In this document: positions 23,575 to 31,973 of the stretch, in pieces
Layout of the letters: every line of letters begins with the position of its first letter
Position numbering within the stretch: the stretch's first letter is position 1
DNA from: Duganella sp. Root336D2
GTDB lineage: Bacteria; Pseudomonadota; Gammaproteobacteria; Burkholderiales; Burkholderiaceae_D
DNA length: 64,000 nucleotides
Reading direction: 5' to 3'
NCBI RefSeq assembly: GCF_001425005.1
Contig: NZ_LMDB01000012.1
Coordinates: 62,001 to 126,000 of the forward strand
Position numbers and translations under genes: made by a program
The notes under the pieces: generated by a model
What the model was told of the DNA's origin: nothing
The model's input: the letters and a program-made list of their open reading frames with translations, nothing else
Databases searched by the model: none

Positions 23575-23697
23575 ACAAAGTGTGCACGGACGCGCGATAG
23601 GGTTTTACTCCGCCGTTGCGTCCGGCTACACTGATGGAAAGGTGTTACCCAGATGTCTAGCAGCGATGCCAGCGAGCAAGCTGAACAGGAGGCCATC

Positions 23698-25110
23698 GTG
23701 AAGCTGCACTCCCCCGCCGGCCTGGCCCGTTTGGGCCTGGCTTTGCTAGCCGCATGCGGCCTTCCGATCCATGCCCGCGAAGCGCCGCCCAGGAATCCCG
23801 TTCCTGCCCGCACCAGCACCACGCCGCCGGACGCGCCGGCCAAACCTCCCACTGCACCGCCCTTGACGCCGCCGCTGCCCGATACGGCCGCCCCGGTGCG
23901 CATCGTGGCCGGCGCCAGTGCGACCGTCAGCGGCGGATCGGCAGCCATCGCGCCTTCGCCCGTAGCGGCCCACCAAGGCTCGCTGGTCATCATTGGCGGC
24001 GGCCTGCGCGGCGATAATGCGGATGTGTGGCAGCGCGTTGTGAAACTGGCTGGCGGCAAGGGTTCGCGCATTGCGGTCTTTCCTTCCGCTGCGGGCAATC
24101 CGGAACGTTCGGCCCAGACCATCATCGGCTACCTGCGCAAGTGGGGCGCGGATGCCTTCCTGGTGCCCGTTGCCGTGCGCCTGGCAGGCAGCGATTACAA
24201 GAAGAACGCGGACGATGCGGCGCTGGCCAGGAGAATCCGGGAATCGGACGGCGTCTACTTCGCCGGCGGCGACCAGGGACGCATCACCAAAGCACTGCTG
24301 CGCGAAGACGGCACCCAGACTGCAGTGCTGGAAGCGGTGTGGGACGTGTACCGCCGCGGCGGCGTCGTTGCGGGTTCCTCTGCCGGTGCCGCCATCATGA
24401 GCAGCACCATGTTCGCCAACCCGAAGGCAATCCTTTCCATGCTGCAGACCGGTATCGCGGATGGCCGTGAACTGGGGCCGGGCCTGGGCTTCATCGGCGA
24501 CGACGTATTCGTGGACCAGCACTTGCTGGTGCGCGGGCGCTTTGCGCGCATGATCCCGGCCATGCTGGCCAAGGGTTACCAGATCGGCCTTGGCATCGAC
24601 GAAGACAGCGCCATGGTGGTGAATGCGCAACGTGAAGTGGAAATCATCGGCTACAAGGGCGCTTTGCTGATCGACCTGTCGCGGGCCGAATGGGACAGGG
24701 AGGCGCCGCACTTCGGGGTGCGCAATGCCGTGATCAGCTATCTCGACCGGGGCGACAAGTTCAATATCGGCACCCACATGTTCCTGCCGTCCAACGACAA
24801 GGCCGGCGGGCGTATCGACCCTACCCGCACGCTGGGCCGGGGGGCAGTGTTCAGCAACGACGTGCTGGGCAACAACGCCGTGATCGACCTGATGGAGCGC
24901 CTGATCGACAGCAACCAGGAAGAGGCGATCGGCATTGCCAGCGGCAACCCGCGCGCCAGCGGCACCGAGCTTGGTTTCGAGTTCCGCTTCACCAAGACGG
25001 CCGATACGGTGGGCTATGTTTCCAGCGTGGCTGAGGCGTATTCGGTGCTGAATATCCGCCTCGATATCCGGCCTATCGAAATCACGCGGCCGCTATATAA
25101 ATATAAATGA
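23698..25110 (+). CDS. Exported cyanophycinase-like S51 family peptidase
   Basis: A 470-residue protein. The GTG at 23698 was chosen because AGGAGG lies five bases upstream and it opens directly onto a signal sequence; the longer frame to 23653 would bury it. The signal has a possible lipobox (LAAC, Cys20), then a Pro/Ala/Thr-rich linker (about 27-95) and the S51 domain, with nucleophile Ser228 in GSSAGAA and the GGDQGR motif near 190. Cyanophycinases cut the Asp-Arg polymer cyanophycin to beta-Asp-Arg; extracellular forms occur in cyanophycin-feeding bacteria. Another exported S51-type peptidase is the alternative. Confidence 0.82.
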   Translation: MKLHSPAGLARLGLALLAACGLPIHAREAPPRNPVPARTSTTPPDAPAKPPTAPPLTPPLPDTAAPVRIVAGASATVSGGSAAIAPSPVAAHQGSLVIIGGGLRGDNADVWQRVVKLAGGKGSRIAVFPSAAGNPERSAQTIIGYLRKWGADAFLVPVAVRLAGSDYKKNADDAALARRIRESDGVYFAGGDQGRITKALLREDGTQTAVLEAVWDVYRRGGVVAGSSAGAAIMSSTMFANPKAILSMLQTGIADGRELGPGLGFIGDDVFVDQHLLVRGRFARMIPAMLAKGYQIGLGIDEDSAMVVNAQREVEIIGYKGALLIDLSRAEWDREAPHFGVRNAVISYLDRGDKFNIGTHMFLPSNDKAGGRIDPTRTLGRGAVFSNDVLGNNAVIDLMERLIDSNQEEAIGIASGNPRASGTELGFEFRFTKTADTVGYVSSVAEAYSVLNIRLDIRPIEITRPLYKYK

Positions 25111-25176
25111 AGATCTGAATCCGGCGCGGCATCCGCCGCGTATATGCCATGGCAAGCAACCACACGGGAGGAAACC

Positions 25177-26640
25177 ATGGCACCCATCAAGCAAGCTGCT
25201 GTCCAGTTAGCCCTGCTGTCGGCCCTGGCGCCGTCGGCGCAGGCGTCCAGTCACCGCGAAGCACCATTCATCACGCGCGAACCCAAGGTCGACGGCACGG
25301 ACTTCTATATGTTCCGCAGCTACGAACCGGGGCGCGGGCAATTCGTGACCCTGATCGCCAATTACGTGCCTTTGCAGGATGCATATGGCGGCCCGAACTT
25401 CTTCACCATGGATCCCGATGCGCTATACGAAATCCATATCGATAACAATGGCGATGCGCGGGAAGACCTGACGTTCCAGTTCCGCTTTACCAACACGTTC
25501 AAAAACGCCGCGTTCATGGTGGGCGGCAAGAAGGTGCCGATTCCGCTGGTGATCAACGGCGGGCCGATTAACGACGTCAATGCGGCCGGACTGAATGTGC
25601 GCGAGACATACACGGTGGACGTGGTGCGCGGCGAGCGGCGCAGCACGCGCCAGCCGGTGCGCATGGCCGGCAACGGCGCCACGGTGTTCGACAAGCCGAT
25701 CGACAATATCGGCAACAAATCGATTCCCGATTACGCGGGGTATGCGGGCAAGCATGTGTACAGCGTGAATATTCCGGGTTGTGCGGTACCGGCGCGCATG
25801 TTTGTCGGGCAGCGCAAGGATTCGTTCGTGGTCAACCTGGGCGAGACCTTCGACCTGATCAACATCAAGGCGCCGGCGGTGGAATTCCTCGCCAACGCGG
25901 AGAAGAATGCGCGCGACGACCTGGACGACAAGAACGTGACTTCCATCGAACTGGAAGTGGCGGCGTCGTGCCTGACATCCGGTACGGAGCCGGTGATCGG
26001 CGGCTGGACCACGGCCAGCTTGCGCCAGGGCCGTTTGATCAATCCCAGCGGCGGCTCGAAGGAGGGCGGGGCGTGGACCCAGGTGTCGCGGCTCGGCATG
26101 CCGCTGGTGAACGAGGTGGTGATCGGCTTGAAGGACAAAGACCGCTTCAACCACAGCAAGCCGGCGCAGGATGGCCAGTTCGCAGACTACGTCACCAACC
26201 CGACCTTGCCGGCGCTGGTGGAGGTATTGTTCGGCAGCGCCGGCGCCAAAGCGCCCACCAACTTCCCGCGCAACGACCTGGTGACTACCTTCCTTACCGG
26301 CGTGCCTGGATTGAACCAGCCGGCGCGCGTGAAGGCTTCCGAGATGCTGCGACTGAATACCTTGATTGCGCCGCTTGCGAAGGGCGCGCAGAAGCGGCTG
26401 GGTGTGATCGACGGCGACAACGCGGGTTTCCCCAATGGGCGCAGGCCGGGCGATGACGTGGTGGATATCGCCTTGCGCGTGGTGATGGGTAAGCTGTGCA
26501 CACTGAATATCGGCTGCGCGCCGAGCGATGCGCCGGCGGGTGCGATTCGCTTCACCGACGGGGCATACCTGGACGACAGCTATTTCAGTGCCGGCTTCCC
26601 ATACCTGCAGACACCGATTGCCGGCTCGCCGCAGCAATAG
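25177..26640 (+). CDS. DUF4331 family secreted protein
   Basis: A 487-residue exported protein. The ATG at 25177 follows GGGAGG. The signal peptide most likely ends at AQA (21-23), which would leave Ser-Ser-His at the mature N-terminus within the family-typical SSHREAP motif. Several conserved acidic patches follow (DGTDFYMFRS; EIHIDNNGDAREDLTFQFRF; GRRPGDDVVDIALRV). There is no known activity for DUF4331. It heads a run of four genes (small lipoprotein, TPR protein, HupE-like protein). The N-terminal X-X-His could bind Cu or Ni; that is my inference. Confidence 0.88.
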   Translation: MAPIKQAAVQLALLSALAPSAQASSHREAPFITREPKVDGTDFYMFRSYEPGRGQFVTLIANYVPLQDAYGGPNFFTMDPDALYEIHIDNNGDAREDLTFQFRFTNTFKNAAFMVGGKKVPIPLVINGGPINDVNAAGLNVRETYTVDVVRGERRSTRQPVRMAGNGATVFDKPIDNIGNKSIPDYAGYAGKHVYSVNIPGCAVPARMFVGQRKDSFVVNLGETFDLINIKAPAVEFLANAEKNARDDLDDKNVTSIELEVAASCLTSGTEPVIGGWTTASLRQGRLINPSGGSKEGGAWTQVSRLGMPLVNEVVIGLKDKDRFNHSKPAQDGQFADYVTNPTLPALVEVLFGSAGAKAPTNFPRNDLVTTFLTGVPGLNQPARVKASEMLRLNTLIAPLAKGAQKRLGVIDGDNAGFPNGRRPGDDVVDIALRVVMGKLCTLNIGCAPSDAPAGAIRFTDGAYLDDSYFSAGFPYLQTPIAGSPQQ

Positions 26641-26652
26641 GAGGGCGCGATC

Positions 26653-26892
26653 ATGAAACGTTCATGTCTTGTGTTTGCGGCCGCGTTGATGGCTGGCTGC
26701 GGTGGCGGCGGTGGCGGGGCCACGCCGGCGATGCCACTGCCCGACCCGGTGCCGGTTGCGTCGCCTGGGGATACTTTTACCTCCGCGCTGGTTGCGCTGG
26801 TCCGCAGTTCTCCCGAGAACACCGAGCCGGTCGACATTGATGGCGCGGCGCTGGCCCTGCCAGAAGGCAGCGAGCCGGTGGCGGTGGAGTGA
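26653..26892 (+). CDS. Small glycine-rich lipoprotein of the DUF4331 operon
   Basis: A 79-residue predicted lipoprotein: lipobox MAGC (Cys16) followed at once by six glycines, then an acidic, proline-containing mature part without cysteine or membrane helix. It starts 12 bases after the DUF4331 stop and ends nine bases before the next chosen ATG, so it is in the operon. It probably tethers to the outer membrane; no function known. Confidence 0.65.
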   Translation: MKRSCLVFAAALMAGCGGGGGGATPAMPLPDPVPVASPGDTFTSALVALVRSSPENTEPVDIDGAALALPEGSEPVAVE

Positions 26893-26900
26893 GGTCTGCC

Positions 26901-28121
26901 ATGAAGGGCGCAGCCTTCACGCCGGCGAAGGCCGCCGCATCGGCCGTCGCTGCCATCGCGGCCATGGCGCTGCCGCTGCCAGGCATGGCGGCGCCGTTCG
27001 TGCCGCAATCCGGGACCGAGGTCCTGGAAACGCTGCCGCGCCGAAGCGATGCGCCTGATGCTGCCTTGCGCCGCCAGCGTGCACGGTTGGCTGCTGCACC
27101 GCGCGATCCGGCGCTTGCCGCCGAGACCGCGCGGCGATATATCGAGCTTGGACGTGCTGCGGGCGACCCGCGCTATTTGGGTTACGCGCAAGCGGCCTTG
27201 GCTCCCTGGTGGGCTGACGCTGCTCCGCCTGTGCCGGTGTTGCTGCTGCGGGCAACGCTGCTGCAATCCAGCCACCGCTTTGCGGAAGCAATGCGCGACC
27301 TGGACGCCGTCACGCGCGCAGATCCTGGCAATGCCCAGGCGTGGCTGACGCTGGCGACTGTGCAGGTCGTCCGCGGAGACTATTCCGCCGCCGTGCGCAG
27401 TTGCGGGCGGCTGTCGTCAGTAGCCAGTCAATTTGCCAGCCTGACCTGCCTGGCCAACGCACGTGCAGCCAGCGGACAACTTGCAGCCAGCGAACGCCTG
27501 CTGGCCCTGGCTGTCTCGCGTGAGGGCCGGGGCGCGACCGATACCGGCTTGCATACTTGGGCCCTGACCTTGCTCGGCGAACTGGCAGCCAGGCGCGGGG
27601 ATGCCGCGCGCGCCGAAGGCAGCTTCCGCCAGGCGCTTATCCTGGCGCCGGGAGACAGCTACCTGCTTGGCGCTTATGCGGACCTGCTGCTGGACCTGGG
27701 GCGCAATGCGGAAGTGCAGGCGCTGCTGCGCGGCCACCTGCGCATTGACGGCCTGCTGCTGCGGCATACGATTGCAGCGAGAACCGTGGTGCATGCCTCC
27801 GCGCCGGCAGCAGCGGGCGCCATCGCCGAGCTGCAAGCGCGCTTCGAGGCGGCCGCACGCCGTGGCGATGCCATCCATCAGCGCGAGCAGGCTCGCTTCG
27901 AGCTGTATTTGCGCCACAACGCGCGCGCGGCGCTGGAACTCGCTCTGGCCAATTGGCAAGTGCAGAAGGAGCCTGCCGACCTGCGTATCCTGCTTGAAGC
28001 GGCGCTCGCCGCGCGCGATCCCGCGGCAGCGCGCCATGCACTTGCCTGGCGCCGCCGGCAAGGCCTTGAGGACAGCAAGATCGCTTCGCTGGCACGCCGG
28101 CTCGAGGGAGGCAGCATATGA
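26901..28121 (+). CDS. Exported tetratricopeptide-repeat protein
   Basis: A 406-residue protein with an N-terminal signal sequence (cleavage after PGMAA, about residue 31) and helical repeats through most of the length; recognisable TPR units include the stretches around DPGNAQAWLTLATVQVVRGD and GDAARAEGSFRQALILAPGD. TPR arrays mediate protein contacts, so it may be the periplasmic scaffold of the operon. The ATG at 26901 is preferred; a GTG at 26889 would overlap the lipoprotein gene. Its stop overlaps the start of the HupE-like gene by ATGA. Confidence 0.75.
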   Translation: MKGAAFTPAKAAASAVAAIAAMALPLPGMAAPFVPQSGTEVLETLPRRSDAPDAALRRQRARLAAAPRDPALAAETARRYIELGRAAGDPRYLGYAQAALAPWWADAAPPVPVLLLRATLLQSSHRFAEAMRDLDAVTRADPGNAQAWLTLATVQVVRGDYSAAVRSCGRLSSVASQFASLTCLANARAASGQLAASERLLALAVSREGRGATDTGLHTWALTLLGELAARRGDAARAEGSFRQALILAPGDSYLLGAYADLLLDLGRNAEVQALLRGHLRIDGLLLRHTIAARTVVHASAPAAAGAIAELQARFEAAARRGDAIHQREQARFELYLRHNARAALELALANWQVQKEPADLRILLEAALAARDPAAARHALAWRRRQGLEDSKIASLARRLEGGSI

Positions 28122-29236
28122 TCACCATGCAGATCGCTGCGCGCAAGCTGGCCGCACTGTTCTTCCTGCCTTTGCTGCTCGATGCCGGCGCGGCCCATGC
28201 GCACAAGCCGAGCGACAGCTACCTTGCGTTGCATGTGACGGCAGCGAGCGAGGCTTCGCGCGGGCGGCAGTTTATCGAAGGACGCTGGGACATCGCATTG
28301 CGCGATCTCGACTTCGCCATTGGCCTCGATGCCGATGGCGACGGCCAGCTGACCTGGGACGAGGTCCGCTCGCGTCACGCCGGGATCGCGGCCTACGCCA
28401 TGCCGCGCCTTGTCCTGGCCCAGGGCTGCCGGCTGCGCGTCACAGGCCAGCAGGTCGACCGCCACACCGACGGCGCCTACACCGTCCTGCTGCTGCAAGG
28501 CGAGTGCGAGCCCGGCACCACCTTCGCCATTGATTACCAACTGTTTGCCGACCTCGATGCCCAGCACCGCGGTATGTCCAGCATCATGCTCAACGGCCGC
28601 ACGCAAACGGCCGTGCTGGGCGGTGTCCACACGCGCTTCGTCGCCGGCGCTGGCGAGGGCAGCGCGTGGCGCCAGGCCATCGACTACCTGCGCCACGGTA
28701 TCTGGCACATCTGGACCGGCTACGACCACATCCTGTTCCTGCTTTCACTGTTGCTGCCAGCCGTGCTGGGGAAAGGATGGCGGGCCGCGGGCGCGCAGGT
28801 GCTGCGCGTCGTCACCGCGTTCACACTGGCCCACTCGGTCACGCTCTCGCTCGCGACGTTGCAAGTGGTCGCGTTGCCAAGCCGGCTGATCGAATCCGCC
28901 ATTGCAGCCTCGGTTGCAATCGCAGCGCTGAACAACCTCTGGCCACTGGTGCAAGGCAAGCGCTGGCTGGCCGCCTTCGCATTCGGCCTGTTGCACGGCT
29001 TCGGATTTGCAGGCGTGCTGGGCGACCTGGGTTTGCCAAAAGAAGCGACGGTACTCGCGCTGGCGGCGTTCAACATCGGCGTCGAACTGGGACAACTGGC
29101 AATCGTTGCAGCCTTCGTCCCGCTGGCTTACGCCATGCGCAGCACATGGGCCTACAAACAGCTGATGGTGAAGGGCGGTTCGGCCGCCATTGCCCTGTTG
29201 GCGATGGTGTGGCTCGTCGATCGAGCCACGGTTTGA
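28118..29236 (+). CDS. HupE/UreJ-like membrane protein with periplasmic EF-hand
   Basis: A 372-residue protein: signal peptide (about 1-28), a periplasmic domain (about 29-185), then six or seven membrane helices with the HupE/UreJ_2 motifs WHIWTGYDHILFL and FGLLHGFGFAG. The predicted mature N-terminus begins with histidine (AHA then HKPSDSYL). Residues 71-82 (DADGDGQLTWDE) are a complete EF-hand loop. HupE/UreJ proteins are thought to be nickel or cobalt permeases; this two-domain subfamily is uncharacterised. It is coupled to the TPR gene upstream. Its stop codon abuts that of the convergent anti-sigma gene. Confidence 0.83.
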   Translation: MITMQIAARKLAALFFLPLLLDAGAAHAHKPSDSYLALHVTAASEASRGRQFIEGRWDIALRDLDFAIGLDADGDGQLTWDEVRSRHAGIAAYAMPRLVLAQGCRLRVTGQQVDRHTDGAYTVLLLQGECEPGTTFAIDYQLFADLDAQHRGMSSIMLNGRTQTAVLGGVHTRFVAGAGEGSAWRQAIDYLRHGIWHIWTGYDHILFLLSLLLPAVLGKGWRAAGAQVLRVVTAFTLAHSVTLSLATLQVVALPSRLIESAIAASVAIAALNNLWPLVQGKRWLAAFAFGLLHGFGFAGVLGDLGLPKEATVLALAAFNIGVELGQLAIVAAFVPLAYAMRSTWAYKQLMVKGGSAAIALLAMVWLVDRATV

Positions 29237-29923
29237 TTACATGGCCCGCACCCACGGGCCCTTATACAGCACCGGCCCGGTCGGCCCGTTCGGATCTGGC
29301 GATCCGCCGCGCGGCTCCAGGGAAATCGCCAGCACCTCAATATCGTCGCCGACGGCACCCGACGCCAGCGAGAAAGTCGCGCGCCCCTCGCTGCCAAGCA
29401 CCCCCAGCGAACGCGGCGAACCTTTTTTCGGAATCGCCCACAACTGCAGGGAGCGGTCGACCGGCACGGGAGCGCCGCCAACGATATGGACTTGCAGCAG
29501 CCGCTTGCTGGTATCCGCTTTCACCAGCAGCGCGGGCTGCGCTTGCTGGTCCGTCAAGGTTGCGACCAGGTCGTACGAAGGCCCACGCAAATGCTGCAAG
29601 CCGATTGCCACCACCAGGGCGGCAGCTAAAGCAGCGGATAAGGTCCCGAGCCCGAAGCCGCGCCAGAAATGCCAGCTGCTGCGTTCGGGCTTCAGGTGTA
29701 ATCGCATTTCGATATTGCGCCAGACTTGAGGAGATGGTTCCTGCGCACGCACGAATTCGTGCATCGGCAGCAAGCGGCGTTCCCATTCCTTGACCAGCAT
29801 GCGCAAAGCGGCGTCGCCGTACATCAAGGCCTCGAAACGACGCCGCGCTCCGCCGCGCAAGTTGCCCAGCACGTACTCGGAGGCCAGCTTGTCGCGCAAG
29901 GCGTCATTGCCACGGGTATTCAT
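29237..29923 (-). CDS. Anti-sigma factor, RskA type
   Basis: A 228-residue membrane-anchored anti-sigma factor. The N-terminal cytoplasmic part (about 1-85) has the anti-sigma pattern (ASEYVLGNLRGGARRRFEAL), one membrane helix follows (about 95-118), and the periplasmic RskA domain (about 120-228) contains LQLWAIPKKGSPRSLGVL. No zinc-binding HxxxCxxC motif is present. The ATG at 29923 overlaps the sigma gene stop (ATGA). It presumably holds the ECF factor inactive until a periplasmic signal arrives. The DUF4331 cluster lies directly beside it. Confidence 0.88.
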   Translation of the reverse strand: MNTRGNDALRDKLASEYVLGNLRGGARRRFEALMYGDAALRMLVKEWERRLLPMHEFVRAQEPSPQVWRNIEMRLHLKPERSSWHFWRGFGLGTLSAALAAALVVAIGLQHLRGPSYDLVATLTDQQAQPALLVKADTSKRLLQVHIVGGAPVPVDRSLQLWAIPKKGSPRSLGVLGSEGRATFSLASGAVGDDIEVLAISLEPRGGSPDPNGPTGPVLYKGPWVRAM

Positions 29924-30474
29924 GGCGCATCTCCTTGCGACAGGCAAAGCTTGAGTTTTTCCATGCCGCGCCGGATCCAGGTCTTGACTGTGCCGACCGG
30001 CAGCGACATGCGCTGTGCCACCTCGGTGTGCGACAAGTCGTGGAAGAAGGCGAGGCCAATTGCCAGCCTGTGCAGGCCTTCCAGGTGCGCCATGCAAGCG
30101 GACAGTGCGCGTGCGTCGCTGCTCATTTCACTCGCCTCGGCGGGCGAAATGGTGTATTCGTCGCGAACTGCTTCATGGTCCAATTCCACCGTATCGTCCG
30201 TGCGGCGCAGGATGTCCAGCGCCTTGTTGCGGACTATGGCGGCCATCCACGTCAGTGGCGCCGCCTGGCCGGCCTCGTAATGCGGCGCTGCGTGCCAGAT
30301 CGACACAAAGCCTTCCTGCAGCGCCTCTTCGGCCAATTCCCGCTGACGTAATATACGCATGGCAAAGCCAAACAGTTTCGGCGCGGCTGCATCATAAAGC
30401 GCGCGAAAAGCCGCAGCGTCCTGGCGGCCTGCTGCAGCCAGCCAGGTTCTTAGCTGTTCGGGTTCGATAGGCAT
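29920..30474 (-). CDS. ECF RNA polymerase sigma factor
   Basis: A 184-residue ECF sigma factor. Region 2 (about 20-90) has the core-binding helix FAMRILRQRELAEEALQEGF, and region 4 (about 130-180) the -35-binding helix-turn-helix LSHTEVAQRMSLPVGTVKTW. It is coupled to the anti-sigma gene. No recognisable copy of its own promoter motif is seen upstream. The neighbouring DUF4331 operon is the likely, but unproven, target. Confidence 0.92.
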   Translation of the reverse strand: MPIEPEQLRTWLAAAGRQDAAAFRALYDAAAPKLFGFAMRILRQRELAEEALQEGFVSIWHAAPHYEAGQAAPLTWMAAIVRNKALDILRRTDDTVELDHEAVRDEYTISPAEASEMSSDARALSACMAHLEGLHRLAIGLAFFHDLSHTEVAQRMSLPVGTVKTWIRRGMEKLKLCLSQGDAP

Positions 30475-30566: not shown

Positions 30567-31973
30567 ATGTCGTACCTGAATCGACTGCTGGCGGGAGCGG
30601 CGCTCAGCACCGCGGCCGGCCTTGCGCTGGCGGCACAACCGGCAACCGTGCGCCTTGACTATATGCATACGGGTAACGCGCTAAACGAAAGTTATGCGAT
30701 CGAACAAGTTGTGATCGAGCCGCTGCCATGGCCGGGCGATATGTCCAAGACGATCGACACCACCAACCGTGGCGTGAACAAGCTCGAAGTGGCGGATGCC
30801 AAGACCGGCAAGGTGCTGTATACCCGCACCTTCTCCACCATTTTCGTCGAGTGGAAGTCGACCGAGGAAGCGGCCAAGCTGTCGCGCGGTTTCCATGAAT
30901 CGGTGCGTTTCCCCAAGCCGGACCGCCCGGTCAAGGTGCGCATCCTGAAGCGCGACGAGCGTAATGAATTCTCCGTGGCGTGGAGCGTGGACGTCGATAC
31001 CGATGCGATGGACGTGGTACGCAGGCAGGATGTGGCGCCTGCCAAGCCGATCCCGATCCGCGTCAATGGGCCGAGCGAGAAGAAGGTAGACTTGCTGATC
31101 CTGGGCGACGGCTATACCAAGGCCGATATGGCCAAGTTCGAAGACCGAGCGCGCAAGCTGTCCGACTACCTGTTCACCGTTTCGCCGTTCAAGGAGCGCG
31201 CCAAGGACTTCAATGTGTGGGCAATGGCGGTGCCGACCCAGGAGTCGGGCGTTTCGCGCCCTTCGACCAACACCCATCATGCGTCGAAGCTGGGCACCCG
31301 CTATGACATCTTCGGCAGCGAACGTTATGTGCTGACCATTGATAACCGCGCGCTGCGCGAGATTGCGCAGCATGCGCCGTACGAGTTTATCGAAATCCTG
31401 GTGAATAACGACACTTACGGCGGTGGCGGCATCTACGGCCAATTCAGCACTGCGGCGGCGGATAACGATTGGGCGAAATACCTGTTCGTGCACGAATTCG
31501 GCCACCACTTTGCAGGCCTTGCGGATGAGTATTACACCTCGCCGGTGGCTTATGCGACCGGCGGTGCACGCATGGAGCCTTGGGAGCCGAATGTGACGGC
31601 GCTGCTGGATCCAGCCAATGTGAAGTGGAAGAAGTTTGTGACGCCGGGGGCTGCCTTGCCGACGGCGTGGCCGAAGGCGGAGTACGAGGCGCACTCTCGC
31701 GAGTACCAGAAGATCCGCGCGCAACTGCGCAAGGATAATCGTCCGGAGTCGGAGATGAGCAAACTGTTCAAGGAGGATCTTGCCTGGACCAATGCGCTGT
31801 TCTCGAAGGCGCCGAATCGCAAAGCGGTGGGGGCTTTTGAGGGCGCTAACTATGAGGCGACCGGCTACTACCGTTCGCAGCAGCAGTGCTTGATGTTTGA
31901 CCGCAGCGAGGAGTTTTGCGCGGTTTGCAGCGAGGCGGTGCAGGAGACGATCGACCTGTACGCGCCGCGCTAA
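30567..31973 (+). CDS. M64 family secreted metallopeptidase (IgA-peptidase-like)
   Basis: A 468-residue exported peptidase. Signal peptide about 1-22 (LALAA), an N-terminal beta domain (about 25-165), then the M64 domain with zinc motif HEFGH (309-313) extended to HEFGHHFAGLADEYY, in which Asp320 or Glu321 would be the third ligand. The C-terminus holds three cysteines (CLMF, CAVC). The founding M64 enzyme cleaves immunoglobulin A, but most environmental members have unknown substrates. It stands alone, divergent from the sigma gene and convergent with parC. Confidence 0.88.
   Translation: MSYLNRLLAGAALSTAAGLALAAQPATVRLDYMHTGNALNESYAIEQVVIEPLPWPGDMSKTIDTTNRGVNKLEVADAKTGKVLYTRTFSTIFVEWKSTEEAAKLSRGFHESVRFPKPDRPVKVRILKRDERNEFSVAWSVDVDTDAMDVVRRQDVAPAKPIPIRVNGPSEKKVDLLILGDGYTKADMAKFEDRARKLSDYLFTVSPFKERAKDFNVWAMAVPTQESGVSRPSTNTHHASKLGTRYDIFGSERYVLTIDNRALREIAQHAPYEFIEILVNNDTYGGGGIYGQFSTAAADNDWAKYLFVHEFGHHFAGLADEYYTSPVAYATGGARMEPWEPNVTALLDPANVKWKKFVTPGAALPTAWPKAEYEAHSREYQKIRAQLRKDNRPESEMSKLFKEDLAWTNALFSKAPNRKAVGAFEGANYEATGYYRSQQQCLMFDRSEEFCAVCSEAVQETIDLYAPR

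Follow-up and report, generated by a model that had tools for sequence, protein, structure and literature searches.

HupE of Rhizobium leguminosarum is a nickel permease (cited in PMC12537917), and passages of the same 2025 paper by Franco Cairo et al. describe metal-binding "anglerase" domains, Ang-1 and Ang-2, that are fused to permeases of the HupE/UreJ-2 type. Structure 9GCE is the Cu-bound Ang-1 domain of one such HupE/UreJ-2 protein; Ang-1 is given dissociation constants of 74 nM (Cu) and 220 nM (Ni), the domain is proposed to fish for metal and feed the permease, capture and uptake being argued for, and a DUF6702 protein is reported to bind Ni, Co and Cu tightly (PMC12537917, in the same passages). 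Here we analyze a 64-kb stretch (the window) of the 6.58 Mb genome of Duganella sp. Root336D2, in which a forward-strand run of genes encodes a DUF4331 protein, a lipoprotein, a tetratricopeptide repeat (TPR) protein and a HupE_UreJ_2 permease, and a gene pair for an extracytoplasmic function (ECF) sigma factor and an RskA-type anti-sigma factor lies on the opposite strand, tail-to-tail with the run. Our best reading of the sequence comparisons, to which we give a probability of a little under 0.6, is that the locus specifies a regulated, ECF-sigma-controlled envelope system that acquires a transition metal (Co, Ni or Cu). An earlier note on this DNA had named Cu/Ni/Co handling as the likely theme, and this is upheld in that the HupE protein fits a published family of Cu/Ni-binding permeases with an N-terminal His and TonB-dependent receptors and NicO permeases are present at the loci of relatives. 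We add to that proposal, and consider it strengthened by, the Ang-1 identity of the permease, an ECF-type promoter, the TonB-dependent receptor, the replacement of HupE by NicO and the co-occurrence of the families in genomes.

The permease and the DUF4331 protein

The mature HupE protein was modelled by AlphaFold2 (predicted local distance difference test, pLDDT, 91), and VIA-align ranked 9GCE first for this model (Z 11.1, root-mean-square deviation 3.1, 129 residues, model residues 1-150 on chain residues 1-156), with the Zn-binding protein ZrgA and PA4063 as runners-up. Foldseek gave ZrgA as its top match (E 3.6e-5), 9GCE not being among the 50 matches listed, and sequence searches with the HupE protein did not retrieve 9GCE. 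His1 follows a permitted cleavage site in 68/68 sequences (here and below, cleavage was judged by a permissive -3/-1 rule, not by SignalP), the membrane motif H-x5-DH is also present in all 68, and 65 of them have an EF-hand-like loop; H1, H169, D175, H176, H211 and H265 are invariant in a 29-row alignment. The H-x5-DH motif matters in HupE. Matches of the EF-hand-like region to a calmodulin-like protein, and of the HupE profile to Hip, are at the level of motifs only. By its modelled fold the HupE protein is an Ang-1 "anglerase", with Cu/Ni binding predicted at His1.

DUF4331 proteins were found in Pseudomonadota, Actinomycetota, Bacteroidota and one Holophagaceae metagenome-assembled genome (MAG). 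Their mature start is (S/A)SH(R/K)E in 95/95 sequences, the window's included, and 94 of these have a permitted -3/-1 pair; the single Bacteroidota copy in the set (locus L121, cleaved between YLES and SSHREAP) passes the rule weakly and the Holophagaceae copy (L111) fails it. The cleavages read in the earlier note, between AQA and SSHREAP in the DUF4331 protein and between AHA and HKPSD in the HupE protein, fit the rule as predicted cleavages, and the N-terminal His of the latter, whose loss among homologues had been put forward there as a refutation, is kept throughout. H3, E5 and P7 are invariant in a 39-row DUF4331 alignment, which has many invariant residues overall. The Ser-Ser-His start has the pattern of an amino-terminal Cu/Ni-binding (ATCUN) claw, whose chemistry fits, and we infer metal binding from it; because the residues around His3 are conserved too, the N-terminus may possibly serve another role, for example in docking. 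The predicted DUF4331 fold is beta-rich (pLDDT 78, predicted TM-score 0.84), and a VIA search gave a best Z of 6.0, mostly to Ig-like folds; a Z under 8 is uninformative there, so we claim no fold relationship. The pattern D(N/A/G/D)..D...D, which resembles some Ca loops as a pattern only, occurs somewhere in 84/95 frames.

Where would the DUF4331 protein act? In three Rhodobacterales plasmids (L113, L116 and L123) its gene adjoins a type II secretion system (T2SS) cluster and no TPR or HupE gene was found in the retrieved stretch, which suggests a secreted form, and in Streptomycetaceae a sortase gene stands beside it and one sequence has a tail that by eye resembles a membrane anchor. These neighbors fit a protein that acts at or outside the cell surface.

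Gene order and promoter in related genomes

Our locus sample consists of 80 named loci, each with up to 10 kb of flank, that ranked best among 554 in a single scan of a genome collection; the nearest named DUF4331 relatives in it are in Duganella, Massilia and Pseudoduganella, which puts the window in Oxalobacteraceae. The order DUF4331-lipoprotein-TPR-HupE is repeated across the Beta- and Gammaproteobacteria of the sample. Within 9 kb, the 75 loci that extend 3.2 kb or more downstream of DUF4331 have a lipoprotein gene in 68 cases, a TPR gene in 66, HupE in 61, NicO in one and either permease in 62, and from this recurrence we conclude that the gene order is not due to chance. The TPR stop codon has the form NTGA in 56/61 loci, matching an overlapping HupE start (start use is predicted), and the lipoprotein shows a lipobox pattern in 74/76 sequences and at least two EP-type motifs in 56/76. 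A related sigma gene is present in 43 of the 58 loci that have 8 kb on both sides, and sigma plus an RskA-type partner in 31/58, after sigma matches above E 1e-12 (gene-order survey) or above 1e-20 (neighbor counts) had been dropped as weak. The placement of the pair varies: it may be convergent downstream, divergent upstream or, as in Paraperlucidibaca (L086, L088) and a Moraxellaceae locus (L095), co-directional downstream, and L086 has a single co-directional run of DUF4331, lipoprotein, TPR, HupE, sigma, anti-sigma and TonB receptor genes. A Herminiimonas MAG (L080:9959-13932) carries tandem DUF4331-lipoprotein pairs with no nearby TPR or HupE gene, and in the Holophagaceae MAG (L111:353-2113) a sigma gene and a ChrR-type cupin anti-sigma gene, not of the RskA type, precede DUF4331.

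NicO-type permeases are found in HupE's place. A Pseudomonadota MAG (L106) has two NicO-like frames there after the TPR gene, and five Actinomycetota plasmid regions (L118, L119, L125, L126 and L127) have DUF4331, TPR and then a NicO-type permease gene; L118 has a sortase gene between DUF4331 and TPR, and a second DUF4331 gene followed by a sortase gene is present in L119 and L125. The NicO proteins of L118, L119, L125 and L127 start with AHPLGN after the signal peptide and have a D.D.DG loop. Judged from these arrangements, NicO can replace the HupE permease. HupE or NicO was identified by profile in 10 of the 17 plasmid regions and by annotation only in L124; neither is present within the retrieved stretch of L113, L116, L120, L121, L123 and L128.

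A shared bipartite site was first spotted by eye in the start regions. In the form TG(A/C)ATC(C/T)-N16-CGTA it lies near 62/81 DUF4331 starts (the window and L032-L111, less L088, whose upstream region is cut off), and other spacings from 10 to 23 gave no starts except for 17 (two) and 22 (one). A strict form, G(A/C)ATCC with spacings of 12-21, is present at 54/94 starts, distant plasmid copies included, and among the 13 plasmid starts the site is found solely in Pseudoalteromonas (L115). In the 1,545,778 bases of the 80 loci the site occurs 84 times, in 67 cases near a DUF4331 start. Of the 17 others, 14 fall at the starts of TonB-receptor genes (9 by script, in a set of 29 receptor frames, and 5 by position or eye), one falls at the start of a TPR-HupE pair that is inverted and set apart (L081) and one at a sigma gene (L102); the last has no gene assigned. 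The 31 genus genomes analyzed hold 47 sites (0-3 apiece), versus 4 for a reversed control pattern, and of the 30 genus sites retrieved as loci 16 precede DUF4331 and one precedes a TonB receptor. Promoter-like sites away from DUF4331 are seen in L134, L143 and three further genus genomes. The window's own genome has two exact sites in its 6.58 Mb, the second of which sits within an open frame. From the linkage we infer that the site is recognised by this sigma factor. The SigK model PRK09646 scores 123.8 bits against the window's sigma factor, which is below its cut-off of 226, and other ECF models score higher. We considered whether the window's sigma gene is itself controlled through such a site and rejected the idea, as none was found upstream of that gene and 4/57 sigma starts have one.

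The linkage of DUF4331 with HupE, TPR and ECF sigma genes, for which the earlier note had proposed a neighborhood survey, therefore recurs in the loci of relatives. Its picture of one co-regulated unit that includes the ECF/anti-sigma pair, and of a tie to the sigma factor, is supported in silico by the sigma linkage (43/58) and the promoter shared by the 62 starts. The genes, families, ATGA overlap and sigma/anti-sigma neighbors that it had listed are likewise borne out by coordinates, frames and profile matches; the coordinates and reading frames of all six genes check out (Table 1). The ATGA overlap of TPR and HupE is at 28118-28121, and there is zero gap between the HupE end at 29236 and the anti-sigma end at 29237.

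Table 1. Features of the locus, numbered from the first nucleotide of the window
Feature	Position	Strand	Support
Predicted ECF promoter of the DUF4331 operon, TGAATCC-N16-CGTA	25116..25142	+	The window's one match (0.03 expected in 64 kb)
Exported DUF4331 protein with predicted mature start SSHREAP	25177..26640	+	PF14224 E 1e-154, residues 24-480, profile 1-421 of 421
Small lipoprotein, acidic (S/T)EP-type repeats toward the C-terminus	26653..26892	+	Lipobox LMAGC by eye; no Pfam family
Exported TPR protein	26901..28121	+	TPR_19 E 6.5e-10
HupE/UreJ-2 permease, predicted Ang-1 type: His1, EF-hand-like loop, H-x5-DH	28118..29236	+	PF13795 E 7.7e-50, residues 190-343
RskA-type membrane anti-sigma factor	29237..29923	-	RskA_C E 4e-25
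ECF sigma factor	29920..30474	-	Sigma70_r2 E 2.6e-15, Sigma70_r4_2 E 6.7e-11

The locus is flanked by genes for a cyanophycinase-like exported protein (23653-25110) on one side and an M64 (IgA) peptidase (30567-31973) on the other. We do not count either as part of it, since among the 80 loci only the closest relatives and a few Pseudoduganella keep them next to it; in addition, the predicted promoter falls between cyanophycinase and DUF4331.

TonB-dependent receptors and the identity of the metal

An extra large gene in several Duganella, Rugamonas and Pseudoduganella loci encodes a TonB-dependent receptor. Plug and barrel domains are present in the receptors of L037, L041, L046, L050, L059, L086 and L097, and 28/80 loci have a receptor-like frame no farther than 9 kb away (E ≤ 1e-8, by similarity to one Duganella receptor). 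Acinetobacter halotolerans (L097) has DUF4331, lipoprotein, TPR, receptor and TonB-like genes with no HupE nearby (the lipoprotein and TonB-like assignments are by eye and have no Pfam match), and in Adhaeribacter the receptor gene is divergent from DUF4331. In Massilia sp. Root418 (L046:13123-16260) HupE_UreJ_2 and the TonB receptor share one 1045-codon open frame, which is either a natural fusion of inner- and outer-membrane proteins or a read-through artefact. On a Comamonadaceae plasmid (L112:10053-11885) a receptor-like frame after HupE overlaps an SMP-30/gluconolactonase annotation and looks truncated.

The Duganella genome itself has two receptor homologues away from the locus, 61% and 51% identical. 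The first lies behind a cobalamin riboswitch (L132:1158-1384, 80.8 bits), beside CbiG, tetrapyrrole methylase and nitroreductase-family genes, and the second adjoins DUF6702 and M1 peptidase genes (L165:3569-8413). With a riboswitch and B12-synthesis genes by one homologue and DUF6702 by the other, the receptor family is, as far as gene context tells, associated with trace metals or cobalamin. A search of the receptor against PDB sequences gave 0 matches, and its kinship to heme and B12 receptor models is weak and below cut-off. That riboswitch was the sole one seen; none at threshold was present in the DUF4331-bearing sources scanned (the window, 24 of the 80 genome loci and 5 of the 17 plasmid loci).

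Do the DUF4331 and permease families also go together in whole genomes? In a family sample of 294 genomes, 116 with DUF4331 and 178 without, HupE_UreJ_2 is present in 116/116 of the former and 78/178 of the latter when weak PF13795 matches are kept, and in 116/116 versus 41/178 without the 37 weak matches, which were marked by hand. Within the genus the figures are 17/17 with DUF4331 and 1/9 without. As the sampled genomes are related, p-values for such co-occurrence overstate independence. Urease is associated with DUF4331 overall (91/116 with, 101/178 without, p 1.6e-4; 8 weak matches, marked by hand, are excluded), and the urease and CobN genome comparisons did not single out a metal.

Several results weigh against a metal-acquisition system of the kind we favor. 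Residues 1-10 of the DUF4331 model, which include the proposed claw, are of low confidence, and the protein matched no solved structure (0 profile matches; none by Foldseek at E ≤ 0.001). There is no TonB receptor beside the window's own operon, and a relaxed upstream scan found no promoter-like site ahead of the two off-locus homologues. HupE or NicO is missing nearby in 13/75 flanked loci, a related sigma gene is missing in 15/58 loci with both flanks, and the nearest NCBIfam model of NicO is an exporter (Ni/Co efflux), a match below cut-off. DUF4331 does not track cobalamin synthesis (CobN in 34/116 versus 68/178, p 0.13), and its link to urease is absent within the genus (12/17 with DUF4331, 9/9 without). 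Finally, 13 of the 30 genus sites had no match among nine query proteins; nine of these 13 are inside open frames of more than 300 codons on either strand, which in GC-rich DNA is a hint only.

Proposed mechanism and comparison with known systems

If the locus acquires metal, it might work as follows. The anti-sigma factor would sense an envelope cue and release the sigma factor, which would turn on the receptor and the operon. The DUF4331 protein, held by the lipoprotein at or outside the cell surface (or, in Actinomycetota, where a sortase gene is adjacent, by a tail resembling an anchor, and in Rhodobacterales brought there by export through the adjacent T2SS), would capture metal through its Ser-Ser-His N-terminus or aid the receptor in capture. 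The receptor would move the metal into the periplasm, where the Ang-1 domain, through His1, would pass it to the HupE membrane channel, with the TPR protein as a scaffold for the hand-over. A bolder version, which we advance tentatively as a possibility well short of probable, would make DUF4331 a widespread protein metallophore, secreted or surface-held, that scavenges metal outside the cell; its X-X-His claw would deliver Co, Ni or Cu to a dedicated TonB receptor, from where the metal would reach the cytoplasm by way of the TPR protein and anglerase-HupE, all under an ECF switch of the RskA type. This version would take in the Actinomycetota (NicO, sortase) and Rhodobacterales (neighboring T2SS) counterparts.

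In which direction does the metal move? Metal transport is predicted, and import is favored by the TonB receptor at the loci of many relatives. The main rival is metallation by export, in which the permease would bring metal out of the cytoplasm into the periplasm for loading into DUF4331, a secreted metalloenzyme with TPR as chaperone. The below-cut-off kinship of the NicO stand-ins to a Ni/Co efflux model, the T2SS or sortase gene beside DUF4331 in some lineages, as for secreted enzymes, and the many invariant DUF4331 residues all speak for it, but a TonB-dependent receptor is an importer and in relatives shares both promoter and locus, and the passages on Ang-1 argue for capture and uptake (PMC12537917); we think this rival rather unlikely. 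The NicO kinship would also suit efflux or stress defence, with a sigma factor that responds to excess metal or to stress on the envelope and a permease that expels metal. ECF/anti-sigma pairs often serve stress responses, which would fit; however, a TonB receptor would be odd in an efflux regulon, the regulon seems very small (the 31 genomes have 0-3 sites each), and the 17/30 sites with an identified gene all precede DUF4331 or a receptor, the other 13 having matched no query. Of the explanations considered here this one is the least probable.

The substrate need not be free metal. TonB receptors usually carry chelates, and DUF4331 and the receptor could handle a chelate, a cobalamin-like molecule or an organic ligand, with HupE_UreJ_2 in a side role; the paralogous receptor under a cobalamin riboswitch points this way, as does the weak receptor kinship to heme and B12 models. 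Set against this, HupE/NicO is the most constant partner after the lipoprotein and TPR genes, and every one of the 116 DUF4331 genomes of the family sample has HupE_UreJ_2. We regard this explanation as improbable and keep import of a transition metal as the preferred one.

No paper naming DUF4331 or PF14224 was found in the literature searched, which did not cover subscription journals and preprints, and a search for HupE with ECF sigma and TonB-dependent terms gave no description of this system that we recognised among the top matches listed. By its gene content the locus looks like an undescribed trace-metal acquisition system. The gene linkage gives DUF4331 a concrete, testable role, the anglerase permeases of 2025 would gain a place in a regulated pathway that includes an outer-membrane receptor, and the promoter site is a means to find the regulon in further genomes. 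Should the metal prove to be cobalt or nickel, the system would show how these soil and water bacteria obtain scarce trace metals.

With R. leguminosarum HupE the permease shares the H-x5-DH motif, seen here in all 68 sequences; unlike it, the protein has a predicted N-terminal metal-capture domain, a different operon and ECF-type control. With the Ang-1 and Ang-2 anglerases fused to HupE/UreJ-2 (Franco Cairo et al. 2025, PMC12537917) it shares the domain layout, the 9GCE fold, a post-cleavage N-terminal His and PF13795, and the passages of that paper drawn on here name no DUF4331, lipoprotein, TPR protein, TonB receptor or ECF control, which are features of this locus. The DUF6702 metal sequesterase in the same passages is likewise an exported, N-terminal-His protein, and the DUF6702 gene of the Duganella genome lies beside a receptor of the TonB family found at the DUF4331 loci, but DUF6702 belongs to another protein family and no promoter-like site was found ahead of its adjoining receptor. 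An RskA-type membrane anti-sigma factor with an ECF sigma factor is common to the SigK/RskA systems of M. tuberculosis and Yersinia (described in parts of PMC7509140); unlike there, the predicted targets here are DUF4331, the TonB receptor and HupE and the promoter is TG(A/C)ATC(C/T)-N16-CGTA, the likeness being one of domains. Metal uptake of the FecA/FecR/FecI type (in the same parts of PMC7509140) likewise ties a TonB receptor to an ECF sigma factor, the counterpart here being the receptor at the loci of relatives, whereas the present locus has an RskA-type rather than a FecR-type anti-sigma factor and, in addition, DUF4331, the lipoprotein, the TPR protein and the predicted anglerase.

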